Assembly: GCF_945881795.1 (NCBI RefSeq) | Contig: NZ_CAMCVG010000002.1 | Location: 1-64,000, forward strand | Source of the DNA: Rhodoferax sp. OV413 | GTDB lineage: Bacteria > Pseudomonadota > Gammaproteobacteria > Burkholderiales > Burkholderiaceae_C | DNA: 64,000 nt | Direction of reading: 5' to 3' | Shown: piece after piece, positions 57,227 through 63,892 of the stretch | Layout of the letters: every line of letters starts with the position of its first letter | Numbering within the stretch: the stretch's first letter is position 1 | Position numbers and translations under genes: made by a program | Notes under the pieces: generated by a model | Seen by the model: only the letters and a program-made list of their open reading frames with translations | Databases searched by the model: none | Told to the model about the DNA's origin: nothing

Positions 57227-57563
57227 ACCGCCATTGTTCTACGAAATCATAGAAAACATTGCAAATTGATTGCAACTTGCAATATCATTAAAAAACGAAA
57301 TTTTGACTAAAGTATCAATTACTGTTCACTTTTCCTGTTTCATGTGACTAAAGCAATTTTGCCCTTGGATGCCCGGTGGGTCGGGCGCGAGCCTGGGGAC
57401 GCTGGCCCCGGGCAGTTGCCGCTGCGCACGCCTGCGCCGGTGGCGGTGGCTGCCGCTGTCACGGTCAAACCCTTGCGCCCGGCCGATCTGGCTAACCGTA
57501 TTTCGACATTGATGCAAGGTCTGAGCGGCCACCACACTAGCCATTACCCTGGAGTGAGCTGCC
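57227..57563. other. 337-bp intergenic region, A+T-rich on the left
   Basis: The first 120 bp are clearly A+T-rich and hold three TTGCAA words and a perfect palindrome. The right part is G+C-rich and contains a 78-codon frame (57344-57580, GTG start) with no recognisable domain that overlaps the next gene. I do not call it a gene. The region must carry the promoters for the divergent YdcF gene and the two-component operon. Confidence 0.6.
57269..57283. promoter_or_regulatory. Perfect inverted repeat ATTGCAA-C-TTGCAAT, candidate operator
   Basis: 15-bp palindrome; another TTGCAA lies 9 bp to its left (57259-57264). It sits between the divergent YdcF gene and the HTH-receiver operon, whose products contain DNA-binding domains. 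Autoregulation is possible. Confidence 0.45.
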
Positions 57564-58166
57564 ATGAATGCAGACCGTGATGTACTGACCACTCAGCAAG
57601 CCGCCCGGCTGTTGGGCCTTTCCACGACGTCAGTTCAAAAAATGGTGATCAACGGCGAGCTCGACGCCTGGATCACGCCCGGCGGACACCGCCGTATCTT
57701 TCGTACCAGCGTAGACCAGTTGCTCAACTCCCGCCACGTCGGGCTGGCCGGAGTGACCAGTTCGCGGCCCCTGCGCATTTTGCTGGTGGAAGACGACCCG
57801 GTACAGATCGCCTTTTTCAAGGCCTTGCTTGCCCGTATCGGCCACATGGTGCAGCTCACCATCATCAACCAGGCGGAGCAGGCCCTGGCACATCTGCGCG
57901 CCTTGCGGCCTGACCTGCTGGTCACCGACCTCGTCATGGAGCCTATGGACGGATTTACCCTGGTGCAAGCGGTGGATGCGGAGCCGGGCCTGGAGGCCCT
58001 CAATATCATTGCGCTGACTGCCATGACGCCTCAGGAAGTCACTGCCGATGCGCGCCTTCCCCAGCGCGTGGTGCGCTACCAAAAACCCCTGAGTGCGGAC
58101 CGCCTGTGCGGCTATCTGGATGCGCTCACCGTGCGCTTGCTGGAGCAGGAGACGGTGAATGCCTAG
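57564..58166 (+). CDS. HTH-receiver protein 1 (excisionase-like HTH at N-terminus, CheY receiver at C-terminus)
   Basis: 200 residues. Residues about 7-53 form an excisionase/MerR-like winged helix (LTTQQAARLLGLSTTSVQKMV, TPGGHRRIFRTS). Residues 70-190 form a receiver with acidic E76-D77-D78, phospho-acceptor D122 (LLVTDLVM) and K174 (YQKP), so it should be phosphorylated. The order DNA-binding then receiver is the reverse of most response regulators. It overlaps the histidine kinase gene by 8 bp, an obvious cognate partner. Confidence 0.88.
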   Translation: MNADRDVLTTQQAARLLGLSTTSVQKMVINGELDAWITPGGHRRIFRTSVDQLLNSRHVGLAGVTSSRPLRILLVEDDPVQIAFFKALLARIGHMVQLTIINQAEQALAHLRALRPDLLVTDLVMEPMDGFTLVQAVDAEPGLEALNIIALTAMTPQEVTADARLPQRVVRYQKPLSADRLCGYLDALTVRLLEQETVNA

Positions 58167-59196
58167 CAGCCCTGCTGCGCAGATGCAGGCCTTGCTGGAC
58201 GCCAGCGGGCAGGCCGTATTCACCTTTCAGGCGGGGAACCCTCTGCAGCCTGCTAACTCCCTGGCCCGCCAATGGTGGGCTGTCGCGGGTGCCGACGAGC
58301 AGCGTGAGCTGCAACAGTGGTGCGACCAGGCGCAGGCCCCGTTGTGCGAGACCACCATCATCTGGGCCAGCCCGCAGCGCAGGGTGTTGCAGGTGCGCAG
58401 TGTGGCCTTGGCCGAAGATGCGTCCGCGCTCTACCTGCAAGACATCACCGAGGCGCATGACATCGACCGCATGAAGTCCGATTTTTTATCCGCCGCCGCC
58501 CACGAGCTGCGCACGCCTTTGGCCAGCATTTATGGTTTTGCCGAGCTGATGCTGGTGCGCACCATGGCGCCCGAGAAGCAAAAAGATCTGCTGGGCACCA
58601 TTCACCGGCAGGCCAAGTCGCTGATGGATTTGATCAACGAGCTTCTCGACCTCTCCCGCATCGAGGCCCGCCAGGGCAAGGATCTGTCTATTGCTCCCTG
58701 CACCGTGGCATCGCTGGTGGAAAGCACGGTGAGCGGCCTGCACTACAAAATAGAAAAGCATCGCCTGCATACCGCGCTGGCGCACGGCGACAGTGTGGTG
58801 CTGGTGGACGCAGACAAGACCCGTCAGGCGCTGCTCAATGTCTTGTCGAACGCGGTCAAGTACTCCCCGCGGGGTGGTGATGTCACGGTCAGCACGGAAC
58901 TGCGGATATCTGATGGCCAAACGCAGGTGGGCGTGCGGGTCGCCGACCAAGGCCTGGGCATGAACGAAGAGCAATGCCGTCGCGCCTTTGAGCGCTTTTA
59001 CCGGGCTGAGCCCCTGGGCGACATTCCCGGCACCGGCCTGGGCCTGAGCCTGGTGCAGGAAATCATGCAGCTGCAGTCCGGCGCGGTAGAGCTCGTCAGC
59101 ACCCCCGGCGAGGGCACGACCGTGACCTTGTGGCTGCCCCTCATGGGCGCAGACGCACCGAGCACAGATCCCCAACCGCCCTATCCTGTGCACTGA
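58159..59196 (+). CDS. Soluble histidine kinase (degenerate PAS, HisKA, HATPase)
   Basis: 345 residues, no membrane segment. About 100 N-terminal residues look PAS-like; H115 lies in AAAHELRTPLASIYGF, and the ATPase domain has NVLSNAVKYSPRGG (N box), DQGLGMNEEQ, and GTGLGLSLVQEI (G boxes). It is a cytoplasmic class I kinase. It is sandwiched between two HTH-receiver genes and may phosphorylate both. Confidence 0.92.
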   Translation: MPSSPAAQMQALLDASGQAVFTFQAGNPLQPANSLARQWWAVAGADEQRELQQWCDQAQAPLCETTIIWASPQRRVLQVRSVALAEDASALYLQDITEAHDIDRMKSDFLSAAAHELRTPLASIYGFAELMLVRTMAPEKQKDLLGTIHRQAKSLMDLINELLDLSRIEARQGKDLSIAPCTVASLVESTVSGLHYKIEKHRLHTALAHGDSVVLVDADKTRQALLNVLSNAVKYSPRGGDVTVSTELRISDGQTQVGVRVADQGLGMNEEQCRRAFERFYRAEPLGDIPGTGLGLSLVQEIMQLQSGAVELVSTPGEGTTVTLWLPLMGADAPSTDPQPPYPVH

Positions 59197-59203
59197 ACGC
59201 CCC

Positions 59204-59812
59204 ATGCGAAAAATATCCAGTAACGATGAACTCATGTCCACCCGCGAAGTGGGGGAGGTGCTGGGCGTCGCGGTCCGCACGGTGCAGCTGTGGGTCGAGT
59301 CGGGCGTGCTACCGGCCTGGCGTACCGCCGGCGGACACCGCCGCATCGCGCGCAGTGCGGTGGAAAACCTCATGCGCGAACGCGCCGGCATGCTCGCACC
59401 GGTGACGCACGGCGCGCATGCGGCCAACCGCGCTTTGCGGCTGTTGCTGGTGGAAGACGACACCGATCTGCGCAAACTCTTTTCGATGATGGTGGAGGGC
59501 TGGACCTTCCCCGTCGAGCTCAGCACCGCGGGCGATGGTTTTCAGGGGCTGGTGCGTATTGGCCAGTGGATGCCCGACATGGTCGTGACCGATCTGAATA
59601 TGCCCGGCATGAACGGTTTCGAGATGGTGCGTTCGCTCAAGAGCGCGGGCGCCGACTATGCCAACCTGCAGGTGGTGGCGGTCACCGCGCTCAGTGCCGG
59701 CGATGTGGCAGACCGTGGCGGCCTGCCCGAAGGAACCGCTGTGTTTCAAAAGCCGGTGGATTTTGGCGCCATCGAGGCGCTGGCCCGCAGCTGCCAGCAG
59801 CGCTTGCGCTAG
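59204..59812 (+). CDS. HTH-receiver protein 2 (excisionase-like HTH at N-terminus, CheY receiver at C-terminus)
   Basis: 202 residues, paralogue of the protein encoded at 57564. The HTH is at about residues 9-55 (MSTREVGEVLGVAVRTVQLWV, TAGGHRRIARS); the receiver has E84-D85-D86, D130 (VVTDLNMPGMNGFE) and K183 (FQKPVDF). All phosphotransfer residues are intact. It starts 7 bp after the kinase and is convergent with the triple-PAS kinase gene. Confidence 0.88.
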   Translation: MRKISSNDELMSTREVGEVLGVAVRTVQLWVESGVLPAWRTAGGHRRIARSAVENLMRERAGMLAPVTHGAHAANRALRLLLVEDDTDLRKLFSMMVEGWTFPVELSTAGDGFQGLVRIGQWMPDMVVTDLNMPGMNGFEMVRSLKSAGADYANLQVVAVTALSAGDVADRGGLPEGTAVFQKPVDFGAIEALARSCQQRLR

Positions 59813-59847: not shown

Positions 59848-62394
59848 CTAAGCCAGCGGAATCCACAGGCTGGCCGTGGTGCCGGTGCCAAACTCGCTGT
59901 GCAGTACCACGCGGCCCTTGTGCAGCTCGGCAATTTCTTTCACCAGACTCAGACCGAGGCCCGTGCCGGGAATATTGCCCGACGCATCAGCCCGATAAAA
60001 ACGCTCAAATGCGCGGTCGAGTTGCTCCTGCGTCATGCCGATGCCTTGGTCCTGCACATCAATCACCGCGTAATCCGCATCTTCCCAGGCGTCGCAGCGC
60101 ACCGAGAGCCGCACATCGCCGCCCTTGGGTGAATACTTGAACGCGTTGGCCAGCAGGTTGGTCAGTGCCTGCTGCATTTTTTCGGGGTCCATCAGGACCT
60201 GCATCGGGGGCAGTGTGTCGTGCAGCACAGGGCGGTCGGTGTCCTTAAGCATCAAGCCCTGAATGCAGCTATGCACCATGTCGGCCAGCGGCTGCGGCTT
60301 GATCTGCATGTCCAGCCCGCCGCGGGACTCGATGCGCGCCAGGTCCAGCAGCTCGTTGAGCATCTTCACCAGCAGCCCGCTTTGTTTATGGATGGTGCGC
60401 AGCATATCGGCCTGCCGCTCCTCGTTGAACTTGCGCTTGGTGAGCAGCTCTGAGAAGCCGAAGATGCTCACCATCGGCGTGCGCAGCTCGTGGGCCGCCG
60501 CGGTCAGGAATTCGCTCTTCATGCGGTCCACCTGGTCCTCGTGGGTCACATCGCGGAAGTACATGATGGTCTCGCGCCGGCCTCCCTCGTTGCGGCGCGA
60601 GCGCACCTGAACCACCCGGCGCTGCGGGCGCGCGAGTTGCAGCTTTTCGTGCCAAGAGGCGTCGGGCTGGTCGCCGCGCATGACCGGCAGGGGCTGGCTC
60701 TCGTCGCACAAATCTTTCAGCTGCTGCTCAAACTGCGACAGATAAAACAGCTGGGATTGCTGCTGGCTCAGGCCGGTCATGCGCTCGAAAGCCGGGTTGG
60801 CAAACACCAGCTGGTCGTAAGCGTCAAACATGACAAAGCCATCGGGGCTGAGGCTGAAGATCGCGTCCAACTGCGCGCGCCGCTCTGCGGTAGCCTGCTC
60901 TGCGCGCACCCGGGCGGTAATGTCGGAGACGATACCTACAAAGTGGGTGAGAACGCCTTTATCAGAGGTGACCGGCGAGAGGGAAATTTCGGCAATCTGC
61001 ATCTCGCCGGATTCCAGCTCGCGGTGGATGGTCACGTTGGCGTTGCGGCGCTCGCGCACGGCGAGTTGCAGTTCTTGCACGCCGGGGTCGTCCTCGTTAC
61101 GGCCGCGCAACAACGACAGGCTCTCGCCCAGGATGTCCCAGCGGGGCAGGTCCAGAAACTTCTGGAACGCATCGTTGATGTAGACGATGGGCTGGTTTTC
61201 CATCTTGCCGTTGGTGATGAACACCGCGTTATGGCTGCTGGCTAGGGCGCGCTCGTAGAGCTCGGAGGTCTCTTGCGCTGCCCGCTCGTCGGTCAAGTCC
61301 CGCACGATGCAGGCATATCGCAGGCCGGAGTCGTTCTTCACTTCGCCCAGGCTCACCTCTACGGGAAACAAGGTTCCGTCGGCGCGGGTACCCATGAAGT
61401 CATGGCGGGTCACCCGGCTGATGTTGAGGGCGTGCTCCATGCCGCCGGCGAACATGGCTGTGAGCTCGTGTGCATGCAGGCCGGGAATGCAGTCGGAGAT
61501 CGCTCGTCCAACCACCTGTCCCTCGGCGCGGCCGAAAATGCTGGAGGTTGCCGGGTTGGCGCTGGTGACCACACCTTGCGTGTCCAAGCTGATGATGGCC
61601 TCGGCCGAGGTGCTCACGATGGCGGCCACGCGGTTCACCTGCATCGCCATGCCACGACTGGCCTGGTTGATGGCGGCTTGCAGCTCGCAGGCTTCTACGC
61701 TGGAAGGTGGAAGCATCAGCTCCTCGCCCATGCGCTGGGGGATTTGACCGGCAAATTCGGCGAGTTTGCTCACCGGTCGCAGCGTCCTGCGCACAATGGT
61801 GTAGAGGCAGGCCATGACGATGGCAATCATGCCGAAGTCCATCAGCACAAACTTGATCCACAGCCAATACAGCCCCCGCAGGTGCTCACCGAGGCTGTAG
61901 TCGGCCCGCACCCAGACATTGCTCTTGGCGCTGTCTTTGCCGACCTCCTGCCAGGCGCTATAGACCCCGCCGCGCTCGCCGCCGGTAGGCAGGCCCGAGG
62001 CCACCTCCCCGGGGGTAAGGTTTGTGCCCGGGCTCACCCTCACCCCATCGGGGGAGCGCGTGACTTCCATGAGGCTGCTGCCGTCCGGCTTGTAGATGCT
62101 GATGCGCTCCAGTCCCGGGAGCTGCACGCCATCGATCGCGTAGCCTTGCAGGTTGCCCGGCAGGCCGGCGATCAAGGCCGAGGCGCTGTTGCCGGCTACC
62201 ATGCGGGCCACCGACTCGGCGTTCAAATGGGCCATCTGCAGGGTCTGCGCGACGACACTGCGGTAGGCGTAAACGCCATATACGGTGGTGGACACCAACA
62301 TCACCACCAGGGTGGCGGCCATGATGATGGTGCTGATGCCGTAGGGCGGAAGAACCCGCTGTTTCAGCATCTGCAACCACGTCAACTGGTGCAT
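59848..62394 (-). CDS. Membrane histidine kinase with three PAS domains
   Basis: 848 residues: TM1 about 22-45, a periplasmic domain about 46-175, TM2 about 180-203, HAMP to about 255, then PAS domains near 258-375, 385-495 and 510-620, HisKA with H635 (AAAHELRTPMVSIFGF) and HATPase (NLLANAFKYSPKGG, GTGLGLSLVKEI). It has no receiver of its own. The CheY-like gene lies 11 bp upstream. Its catalytic core is strikingly similar to that of the convergent soluble kinase (HELRTP-x-x-SI-x-GF, FERFYRA-x-x-x-G-x-IPGTGLGLSLV). Confidence 0.93.
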   Translation of the reverse strand: MHQLTWLQMLKQRVLPPYGISTIIMAATLVVMLVSTTVYGVYAYRSVVAQTLQMAHLNAESVARMVAGNSASALIAGLPGNLQGYAIDGVQLPGLERISIYKPDGSSLMEVTRSPDGVRVSPGTNLTPGEVASGLPTGGERGGVYSAWQEVGKDSAKSNVWVRADYSLGEHLRGLYWLWIKFVLMDFGMIAIVMACLYTIVRRTLRPVSKLAEFAGQIPQRMGEELMLPPSSVEACELQAAINQASRGMAMQVNRVAAIVSTSAEAIISLDTQGVVTSANPATSSIFGRAEGQVVGRAISDCIPGLHAHELTAMFAGGMEHALNISRVTRHDFMGTRADGTLFPVEVSLGEVKNDSGLRYACIVRDLTDERAAQETSELYERALASSHNAVFITNGKMENQPIVYINDAFQKFLDLPRWDILGESLSLLRGRNEDDPGVQELQLAVRERRNANVTIHRELESGEMQIAEISLSPVTSDKGVLTHFVGIVSDITARVRAEQATAERRAQLDAIFSLSPDGFVMFDAYDQLVFANPAFERMTGLSQQQSQLFYLSQFEQQLKDLCDESQPLPVMRGDQPDASWHEKLQLARPQRRVVQVRSRRNEGGRRETIMYFRDVTHEDQVDRMKSEFLTAAAHELRTPMVSIFGFSELLTKRKFNEERQADMLRTIHKQSGLLVKMLNELLDLARIESRGGLDMQIKPQPLADMVHSCIQGLMLKDTDRPVLHDTLPPMQVLMDPEKMQQALTNLLANAFKYSPKGGDVRLSVRCDAWEDADYAVIDVQDQGIGMTQEQLDRAFERFYRADASGNIPGTGLGLSLVKEIAELHKGRVVLHSEFGTGTTASLWIPLA

Positions 62395-62405
62395 GATGCG
62401 GCCGC

Positions 62406-62777
62406 TCAGGGAACCAGGCGGTCTACCGTATCGAGGAGTTCAATCGGGCTGAAAGGCTTGACGAGGTAGGCGTCACAGCCGGCTTCGTGCCCGCGTTCCA
62501 CGTCGGTTTTTTGGCCGCGTGCGGTCAGCAAAATCACTTTAGTCTTGCTGGCCAGCTCCGGGTCTGCCTTGACCTTTTCACAGACTTGGTAGCCGTCGAG
62601 CCGGCCGGGCATCATCACATCAAGCAGGATCAGCGCCGGGCGCAACTGCTGGGCCTTGAGCCAGGCGATCTCGCCGTTTTCGGCTTCATGGAGTTCGAAG
62701 TTTTCGCTCTCCATGGTCATCATGATGAGTTTGCGGATATCGGGCTGGTCGTCGACGATGAGTGCTCTGCGGGCCAT
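62406..62777 (-). CDS. Single-domain CheY-like response regulator
   Basis: 123 residues, receiver only: MARRALIVDDQPDIRKL (D9-D10), phospho-acceptor D53 (LILLDVMMPGRLDGYQV), Thr in LLTARG and Lys in AYLVKPFSP. It has no output domain, so it probably relays phosphate or binds a protein target. It is encoded between the pseudokinase-like protein (2 bp gap) and the triple-PAS kinase. Confidence 0.94.
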   Translation of the reverse strand: MARRALIVDDQPDIRKLIMMTMESENFELHEAENGEIAWLKAQQLRPALILLDVMMPGRLDGYQVCEKVKADPELASKTKVILLTARGQKTDVERGHEAGCDAYLVKPFSPIELLDTVDRLVP

Positions 62778-62779
62778 TT

Positions 62780-63892
62780 TTAGCTTTCTTTCTTTTGACG
62801 TTGCATTAACAGGGCAAGGTCCGCGGCATAGCGCTGTGCCTGTTCCATATCGATGTTAGCTTGGCCACGTTGCGGTTGGCCGGTGGGAAATTCGATCATC
62901 ACGCGGGTGTCTTCACCGTCGACAATAGACATCCGCATGTTGCCGCCATGCAGCCCGATGATGCGGTTGACCAGTGGCAGGCCCAGGCGGGCATTGGCCT
63001 GCTCAGGGCGGCGCGTATCAAACAGGTCGCGGGTTTCAATGCCCTTGTCCTCGGGGCTGATGGCGCCCTGGTTACGCACGCTGATCAGCATGTATTCGCC
63101 AGAAAGCTGATAGCTAATCGATACGTTGCAATCGACGCCGGCTTTGACTGCCTTGCGTGAGTGGGTGAGCGCGTTGTCAAAGGCCTCATACAGCGCGCGC
63201 TTGATCAGGCGGTTGTTGCCATAGAGGGGCGGCAAATCGCTGGGGGGCGGCTTTACCTCAAAGCGGACTTTGTTGGTGATGGCCTTTTCTTTCAGCGCGT
63301 CCAGGGTTTGGTTGATGACCGCTGTGATGTCCATGCGGTCGTCCATCACCATCGACTCTTCGCCAAACACCGCCAGCAAATCGGCCAGGCGGCGGAGGCG
63401 GTCGTCGAGCTCAGCAACCGCTGTGTCAAACTTTTGACCACCCTCGCCGGACGGGAGCGAGCCCAGCATGGTGGACACCTTGCGCATCGGCGGGCTCAGC
63501 TCGTCCCGGAGCAACTGAATAATTTCATCGATGCCCATGCGGTTGCTTTTGACGCCGGGGCCGGCGGGCGCCTCTTCGCCGCCCTCGGGGGGCGAGCCCA
63601 CAAAGGCAATGTCCAGCCCGGACGGGCCGGCCATGAAGGTGCCGTTCATCTTTTTGTTTTCGCCCACACCCACAGCTGCTTGGTAGGGCAGCTTGATTTT
63701 GCCGAGGGCAATAGCCTGGGCCAGATTCTTGATGATGACTTTTCCGCTCATGGCTTCGAGCGGTTTATCAGGATGGGTGCGCGCCGCCGGGTTGGCGTAG
63801 GTGGCCGTGCCGTTCACCCCGAAAGTGATCATTGGCAAGGGCATGGCATCAAACAGGGCATTTACCGATGGTTGATGGTAGTTGACTGCCAT
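62780..63892 (-). CDS. Histidine kinase-like ATPase with PAS domain and no phospho-acceptor His
   Basis: 370 residues. Residues about 5-95 look PAS-like (ALFDAMPLPMITFGVNGTATYANPAA). A dimerisation-like helix follows, but the H-box position reads LLRDELSPPMRKVSTML, with Asp130 where His is expected. The ATPase domain is recognisable (LIKRALYEAFDNALTHS, ARLGLPLVNRIIGLHGG) though its G boxes are weak. It may bind ATP and regulate the two downstream partners rather than phosphorylate them. First gene of the operon; 108 bp upstream of it are in the window. Confidence 0.82.
   Translation of the reverse strand: MAVNYHQPSVNALFDAMPLPMITFGVNGTATYANPAARTHPDKPLEAMSGKVIIKNLAQAIALGKIKLPYQAAVGVGENKKMNGTFMAGPSGLDIAFVGSPPEGGEEAPAGPGVKSNRMGIDEIIQLLRDELSPPMRKVSTMLGSLPSGEGGQKFDTAVAELDDRLRRLADLLAVFGEESMVMDDRMDITAVINQTLDALKEKAITNKVRFEVKPPPSDLPPLYGNNRLIKRALYEAFDNALTHSRKAVKAGVDCNVSISYQLSGEYMLISVRNQGAISPEDKGIETRDLFDTRRPEQANARLGLPLVNRIIGLHGGNMRMSIVDGEDTRVMIEFPTGQPQRGQANIDMEQAQRYAADLALLMQRQKKES

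Follow-up and report, generated by a model that had tools for sequence, protein, structure and literature searches.

The stretch of DNA under study (henceforth the window; 64,000 nucleotides of Rhodoferax sp. OV413) is part of a 2.35-Mb draft genome in 148 contigs, labelled G000 in the comparisons below. Towards its end we found three signalling genes on one strand followed by three on the other:

RR1, 57564..58166, + strand: HTH_17 head followed by a receiver, 200 aa; D122; GGHRRI at residues 40-45; member of the RR1/orphan clade
HK, 58159..59196, + strand: soluble kinase (HisKA/HATPase), 345 aa, its PAS degenerate; H115; homologous to the C-terminal part of BIG
RR2, 59204..59812, + strand: HTH_17 head followed by a receiver, 202 aa; D130; GGHRRI at residues 43-48; conserved neighbour of HK
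BIG, 59848..62394, - strand: three PAS stretches, HisKA and HATPase_c; convergent to RR2; DHp quartet SGFL
RR3, 62406..62777, - strand: stand-alone CheY-like receiver; alpha1 similar to that of RR2
HK3, 62780..63892, - strand: HATPase_c, no HisKA match; neighbour of RR3 and BIG in several relatives

RR1 and HK overlap by 8 nt, and 7 nt separate the HK stop from the start of RR2; RR1-HK-RR2 is confirmed as a tight, operon-like gene run on a single strand. HK3 has, by eye, D at the place of the H-box histidine (RDELSPPM); it adjoins RR3 and BIG also in G007, Rhodoferax bucti, G001, G029 and L100 and is perhaps a pseudokinase partner. Just past the window end (L096:14674-19790), a hybrid kinase with receiver and Hpt domains, a receiver fused to a kinase and an MCP continue the cluster, and the stretch can thus be regarded as a signalling island.

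Both regulators carry the HTH first and the receiver last, as a preliminary description of this DNA, made from the letters alone, had proposed. Specifically, Pfam places HTH_17 at residues 7-57 of RR1 (E 5.3e-11), followed by Response_reg at 72-182 (1.3e-13); in RR2, HTH_17 at 10-60 (3.6e-11) and MerR at 13-47 (6.1e-07) are followed by Response_reg at 81-192 (6.6e-14). HK matches HisKA at 105-170 (3.1e-21) and HATPase_c at 217-328 (4.6e-25). Given that all of the HTH_17, Response_reg, HisKA and HATPase_c matches exceed the Pfam cut-offs, we consider them to be above chance. The excisionase/MerR-like character proposed for the two N-termini agrees with HTH_17 being over its cut-off in both; as for the MerR-type wing-HTH, RR2 passes the PF00376 and PF13411 cut-offs and RR1 passes HTH_17 only. 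The GGHRRI motif begins at residue 40 in RR1 and 43 in RR2, and D122 and D130 lie where that description had put them. Neither protein has the order of OmpR/PhoB or NarL/FixJ regulators (i.e., receiver first, with its own C-terminal DNA-binding domain), nor the long dimerisation helix and effector domain that follow the HTH in classical MerR proteins; instead, the HTH is followed by a helix of about 15-17 residues that leads through a linker to the receiver.

To place the two proteins within a family we used A2, a profile and alignment of bacterial HTH_17-receiver proteins with 73 rows. The receiver residues of a two-component response regulator (the acidic pair, the phospho-acceptor Asp, T/S and Lys) are present in both RR1 and RR2, and in the A2 rows (RR2 numbering) D85, D130 and T/S161 are each found in 73 of 73 and K183 in 72. 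The signature of the family consists of the AW.T.GGHRR wing and, in the receiver behind it, GGLP ahead of beta5; it is complete in RR2 and reduced in RR1 to the wing and LP, with A-R in place of G-G; within A2, G172 is kept in 68 and P175 in 70 of the 73 rows. AlphaFold2 models of the two regulators (mean pLDDT 89.2 for RR2 and 88.7 for RR1) agree with the domain order; in each of them a low-confidence linker joins the wing-HTH and the helix just mentioned to the receiver. At a pTM of 0.67-0.68, the mutual placement of the two domains is not fixed in either model, and with low pLDDT at residues 68-70 of RR2 and 60-65 of RR1, the linker between head and receiver is predicted to be flexible in both. 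Alpha4 of the RR2 model spans only residues 165-170 and runs into the GGLP stretch; because this stretch shortens alpha4, the usual receiver dimer face may be absent.

The kinase between the two regulators retains its H-box, N-box and G-boxes. Its PAS is degenerate, in agreement with the preliminary description: PAS_7 scores 14.5 bits against a cut-off of 27. HK is homologous to the last part of BIG, with 44% identity over the length of HK from the PAS on and 51% over the catalytic part. The HKs of four related loci (L104, L106, L108, L117) have a longer PAS region than the HKs of the window and of L099, and for this reason the PAS of the window HK looks to be decaying.

The reversed order of domains is not new. 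The preliminary description had known of no characterised system of this design, yet two have been characterised in archaea, and the receiver of a bacterial response regulator titled 'merR' has been in the PDB since 2008. FilR1 of Methanosaeta harundinacea has an N-terminal winged HTH and a C-terminal receiver (PMC3991700, PMC5847659); FilI phosphorylates both FilR1 and the stand-alone receiver FilR2, and FilR1 binds its own promoter and others, with phosphorylation enhancing the binding according to the title of a supplementary figure (PMC3991700). The Fil system resembles the present one in its reversed order and in having a stand-alone receiver beside a DNA-binding one (cf. RR2 and RR3), but FilR1 is archaeal, has an ArsR-related HTH and a middle DUF1724 rather than an HTH_17 head, and is the only DNA-binding regulator of its system, whereas there are two here. 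LtrR of Methanococcoides burtonii likewise has its HTH at the N-terminus and its receiver at the C-terminus, and its authors themselves note the reversed order (PMC4823666). The likeness to LtrK/LtrR lies in domain order; that system is archaeal and has a single regulator and a membrane CHASE kinase. We thus compare RR1 and RR2 with FilR1 and LtrR for their HTH-first, receiver-last order, and claim no family membership. The available portions of PMC4558063 and PMC3018481 contain nothing on HTH-receiver order, and PMC12826045 concerns a different unusual regulator (REC plus RsbW-like).

Two solved structures match in sequence. PDB 3cnb, titled 'DNA binding response regulator protein (merR)', from Colwellia psychrerythraea and released in 2008, contains the receiver only, which matches the A2 profile over 74-202 (E 7.6e-19) as well as the RR2 model; its title implies a MerR-type head, and in the alignment its receiver is without the GGLP stretch. 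The closest solved sequence relative of the RR2 head is BldC of Streptomyces (PDB 6amk, 6ama; E 3.7e-05), which binds direct repeats head to tail (PMC5859096). BldC has the GGHRR wing, and the equivalent of its Trp31 is W in 68 of the 73 A2 rows; unlike RR1 and RR2 (200-202 aa with a receiver), it is a stand-alone protein of 68 residues without one. At the position of Leu43, which belongs to its head-to-tail interface, RR2 has A and RR1 has P; at that of Arg30 they have L and K, respectively. Since Leu43 is not kept, we do not carry the BldC binding mode over to the RR heads.

The architecture is also common. A scan of a species-genome collection with the wing motif found at least 552 stretches that encode relatives, and most of the best 80 of these, which were kept, are titled Beta- or Gammaproteobacteria, with one Emcibacter; because AW.T.GGHRR was the scan pattern, the invariance of the wing among scanned relatives is by construction. 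Of 397 genomes sampled from the phylum, 55 match the A2 profile at E 1e-28, representing 29 of 232 genera (some of the listed matches cover part of the profile). The idea that the architecture had not been described before therefore fails in the general sense: the reversed-order design is widespread and already annotated, and this is no new kind of system. HTH-first order holds in 114 of 114 two-domain proteins, all of which were collected with HTH-first queries. Within three genes of 112 family genes from the fetched loci (a number that includes the window's own copies and contigs present twice), a kinase was found for 70, a stand-alone receiver for 57, a second HTH-receiver gene for 24 and none of these for 30. 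What remains unusual is the presence of two distant HTH-receiver paralogues around a kinase in one operon, which in our samples is limited to this genus.

That RR1 and RR2 are paralogues was correctly seen, but they are distant ones (34% identical). We placed them in a quick tree of 104 rows, after dropping seven duplicate loci and rows outside 180-290 aa; support values are SH-aLRT only, and the tree program warns of long branches. RR1 falls in a clade of 12 rows with an orphan on contig C14 and ten others, behind a branch with SH-aLRT 100; RR2 falls in a different clade of 19 rows (SH-aLRT 99), which holds Comamonadaceae. At E 1e-40, RR1-like matches were found in one of 200 family genomes, namely its own, and in a search of 61 genomes every match to RR1 of at least 47% identity belongs to the window's genus. 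By these sequence comparisons RR1 belongs to a separate clade that, within the samples, is confined to this genus. With separate clades and 34% identity, we rejected a recent tandem duplication as the origin of the pair. A phage or plasmid origin of the excisionase-like head was likewise rejected: RR2 has one match among 50,697 phage records, covering the HTH only; RR1 has 52 matches among plasmid records, all below 60% identity and 3 with coverage of at least 80%; and the operon DNA has 6, which are short pieces. The C14 orphan (G000:C14:30417-30986, L002) shares 63% identity with RR1 and is a third HTH-receiver gene; it adjoins a DEAD-box helicase gene both in its own genome and in G007, and RR1-type orphans also occur in several small genomes of the genus.

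Gene order in relatives sets the two regulators further apart. The RR1 and RR2 queries each match 34 of 61 genomes at E 1e-12 (a few matches being receiver-only). The run RR1-HK-RR2 is found in the window, G007, G001, G020, L099 and L100; G029 has it as well, split within HK by a contig break; BIG, RR3 and HK3 come after it as far as the contigs extend (they are not visible in G020, and BIG is partial in L099). HK-RR2 without an adjacent RR1 is found in L104, L106, L108 and L117, with part or all of BIG, RR3 and HK3 present and no second HTH-receiver gene in their listed neighbourhoods. In four further relatives (G014, G006, G018, G031) RR2 alone stands beside DEAD-apaH-CNNM-DUF218 genes, with no kinase or receiver gene close by. 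As RR2 occurs without an adjacent RR1 in both kinds of locus, we take RR2, not RR1, to be the older member. In the complete genome of Rhodoferax bucti, RR1 and RR2 lie 42 bp apart with no HK between them; nor was HK found anywhere else in that genome, where the best match to HK is BIG. HK is thus dispensable.

This absence raises the possibility that RR1 and RR2 act without phosphorylation by HK, their receivers serving as protein-protein docking parts and HK being a relic on its way out. The degenerate PAS, shorter than in the four loci with HK-RR2 only, and the want of a kinase near RR2 in the four relatives where it stands alone would fit such a course as well, but the retention of the H-box, N-box and G-boxes in HK and of the phospho-acceptor Asp, T/S and Lys in nearly all of the 73 family members makes it very unlikely. 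A second possibility, close to the preliminary description, is that HK phosphorylates RR1 and RR2 alike and that the two bind DNA as a heterodimer. The packing of RR1-HK-RR2 in seven loci (counting G029 across its contig break), the adjacency of RR1 and RR2 in R. bucti and the completeness of both receivers speak in its favour. Yet the two proteins are only 34% identical and belong to separate clades, their alpha1 helices differ, RR2 lacks an adjacent RR1 in many loci while RR1-like orphans lack RR2 beside them, and R. bucti lacks HK. We therefore consider a shared-kinase heterodimer unlikely. Of two paralogues sharing one kinase, the flanking of HK by both stands; the sharing is weakened, given that RR2 is the conserved neighbour of HK and that RR1 has another branch and another docking helix.

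The neighbourhood offers a further explanation, which is compatible with the branched module set out below, namely that the genes serve a chemosensory or c-di-GMP pathway as its transcriptional arm. In G001 (L069:839-7642), genes for CheR, a receiver, CheA, a receiver, an MCP and a ParA-like protein immediately precede RR1 in the same orientation, and the neighbours of RR1 in G020 and G029 equal those of G001 in gene length; the hybrid kinase with Hpt and the MCP past the window end point the same way. In L103 an HD_5 (HD-GYP-like) protein precedes RR2, and in L082 family members have PAS and GGDEF proteins close by. The neighbours vary, however: the window, G007, R. bucti and L100 have DEAD-box, apaH-type and CNNM genes upstream, DUF218 being detected in all of these but L100, and we regard such a pathway arm as rather doubtful. 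A stand-alone receiver gene lies upstream of RR1 in G007, R. bucti and L100; between 57226 and 57563 the window has none. The stretch 57340-57563 of the window ends in receiver-like VKPLRPADLANRI; that it is a decayed gene of this kind was a guess that found no support from tblastn or a receiver profile.

Clues to phosphotransfer come from the DHp positions H+8, +11, +12 and +15, which we take, from model kinases, to be the specificity positions. This quartet reads SGFL in HK, in BIG and in all 23 listed kinases (which include the window's two and are not all independent, that of G029 being read from its own contig); the HK of L108, outside the H-box pattern of that list, reads SGYL by eye. 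Out of 65 HisKA matches in G000 and G007 we fetched 30 and read the quartet in 29: SGFL was found in five, i.e., two HKs, two BIGs and one more G007 kinase. This last one (G007:C1:533643-533840, L197) lies outside the cluster and is a candidate partner for the RR1-type orphan. Across the fetched loci, 35 of the 68 kinases that lie no more than three genes from a family member carry SGFL, vs. 5 of 24 farther off, meaning that it marks the family's kinases but is neither universal nor exclusive to them. On the regulator side, alpha1 of RR2 (DLRKLFSMMVEG) is similar to that of RR3 (DIRKLIMMTMES) and dissimilar to that of RR1 (VQIAFFKALLAR). The shared quartets together with the likeness of RR2 and RR3 argue that HK and BIG would have RR2 and RR3 in common, with RR1 as the odd one out.

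We propose that the locus probably encodes a branched phosphotransfer module, with RR2 as the DNA-binding output and RR1 as a recruited second regulator. For phosphotransfer partners, oligomerisation, DNA binding and targets we infer the following course. HK (soluble, with its decayed PAS) and the convergent PAS kinase BIG would autophosphorylate on the H-box histidine and, presenting the same docking residues, would both be able to phosphorylate RR2 at D130 and the CheY-like RR3. Phosphorylation of RR2 would alter the self-association of its receiver, which through the flexible linker would gather at least two MerR/excisionase-type wing-HTH heads on DNA. RR3 would be a stand-alone partner or a phosphate sink, as FilR2 may be beside FilR1. 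RR1, built in the same way, would be a second regulator that this genus recruited into the operon from an orphan lineage; its phosphorylation residues are all kept, but with its different docking helix it probably receives little phosphate from HK, or is served by another kinase. The simplest reading would be that receiver phosphorylation controls the assembly of wing-HTHs on DNA (cf. FilR1). Several observations run against the branched module: SGFL is not unique to cluster kinases and is replaced by SGYL in one HK; wherever both are present (seven loci), RR1 adjoins HK, as a shared kinase would explain equally well; RR2 is without a nearby kinase or receiver gene in four relatives; with alpha4 shortened by GGLP, the usual receiver dimer face may be missing; and the tree is a quick one with long branches. 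A more elaborate version, which we hold to be quite improbable, is a two-input DNA switch in which RR2 would be charged by HK and BIG, and RR1 by a distant other kinase, so that co-occupied promoters would integrate two phospho-signals; the receivers would then dimerise off the alpha4-beta5-alpha5 face, alpha4 being cut by GGLP.

A DNA site for the regulators had been suggested in the palindrome at 57269 (TTGCAACTTGCAA at 57270-57282). Three copies of TTGCAA lie here within 24 bp (57259, 57270 and 57277; 57259-57282), between the DUF218 gene and RR1. The motif is absent, by eye, from the upstream stretches of six relatives (G007, R. bucti and the four with RR2 alone). A search of the window's own genome for the triplet with at most 3 mismatches returned 6 matches, three at the site itself and three elsewhere with 3 mismatches each, vs. 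0 for a backwards control; the 13-mer with at most 2 mismatches occurs 3 times in the window vs. 2.33 expected. With no TTGCAA in the six relatives and no second good copy of the triplet in the genome, we rejected the palindrome as an operator.

Taken as a whole, the observation is real and tidy, and it concerns an understudied family of which this is an ordinary member. HTH_17-receiver proteins are common in the phylum (55 of 397 sampled genomes), yet we found no functional study of a bacterial HTH_17-receiver protein in open-licence papers, a scope that makes this absence weak. With docking residues kept in its kinase, a distant paralogue packed into the run and a kinase-less relative for comparison, the operon is a handy case for how a receiver behind a MerR-type head controls DNA binding.
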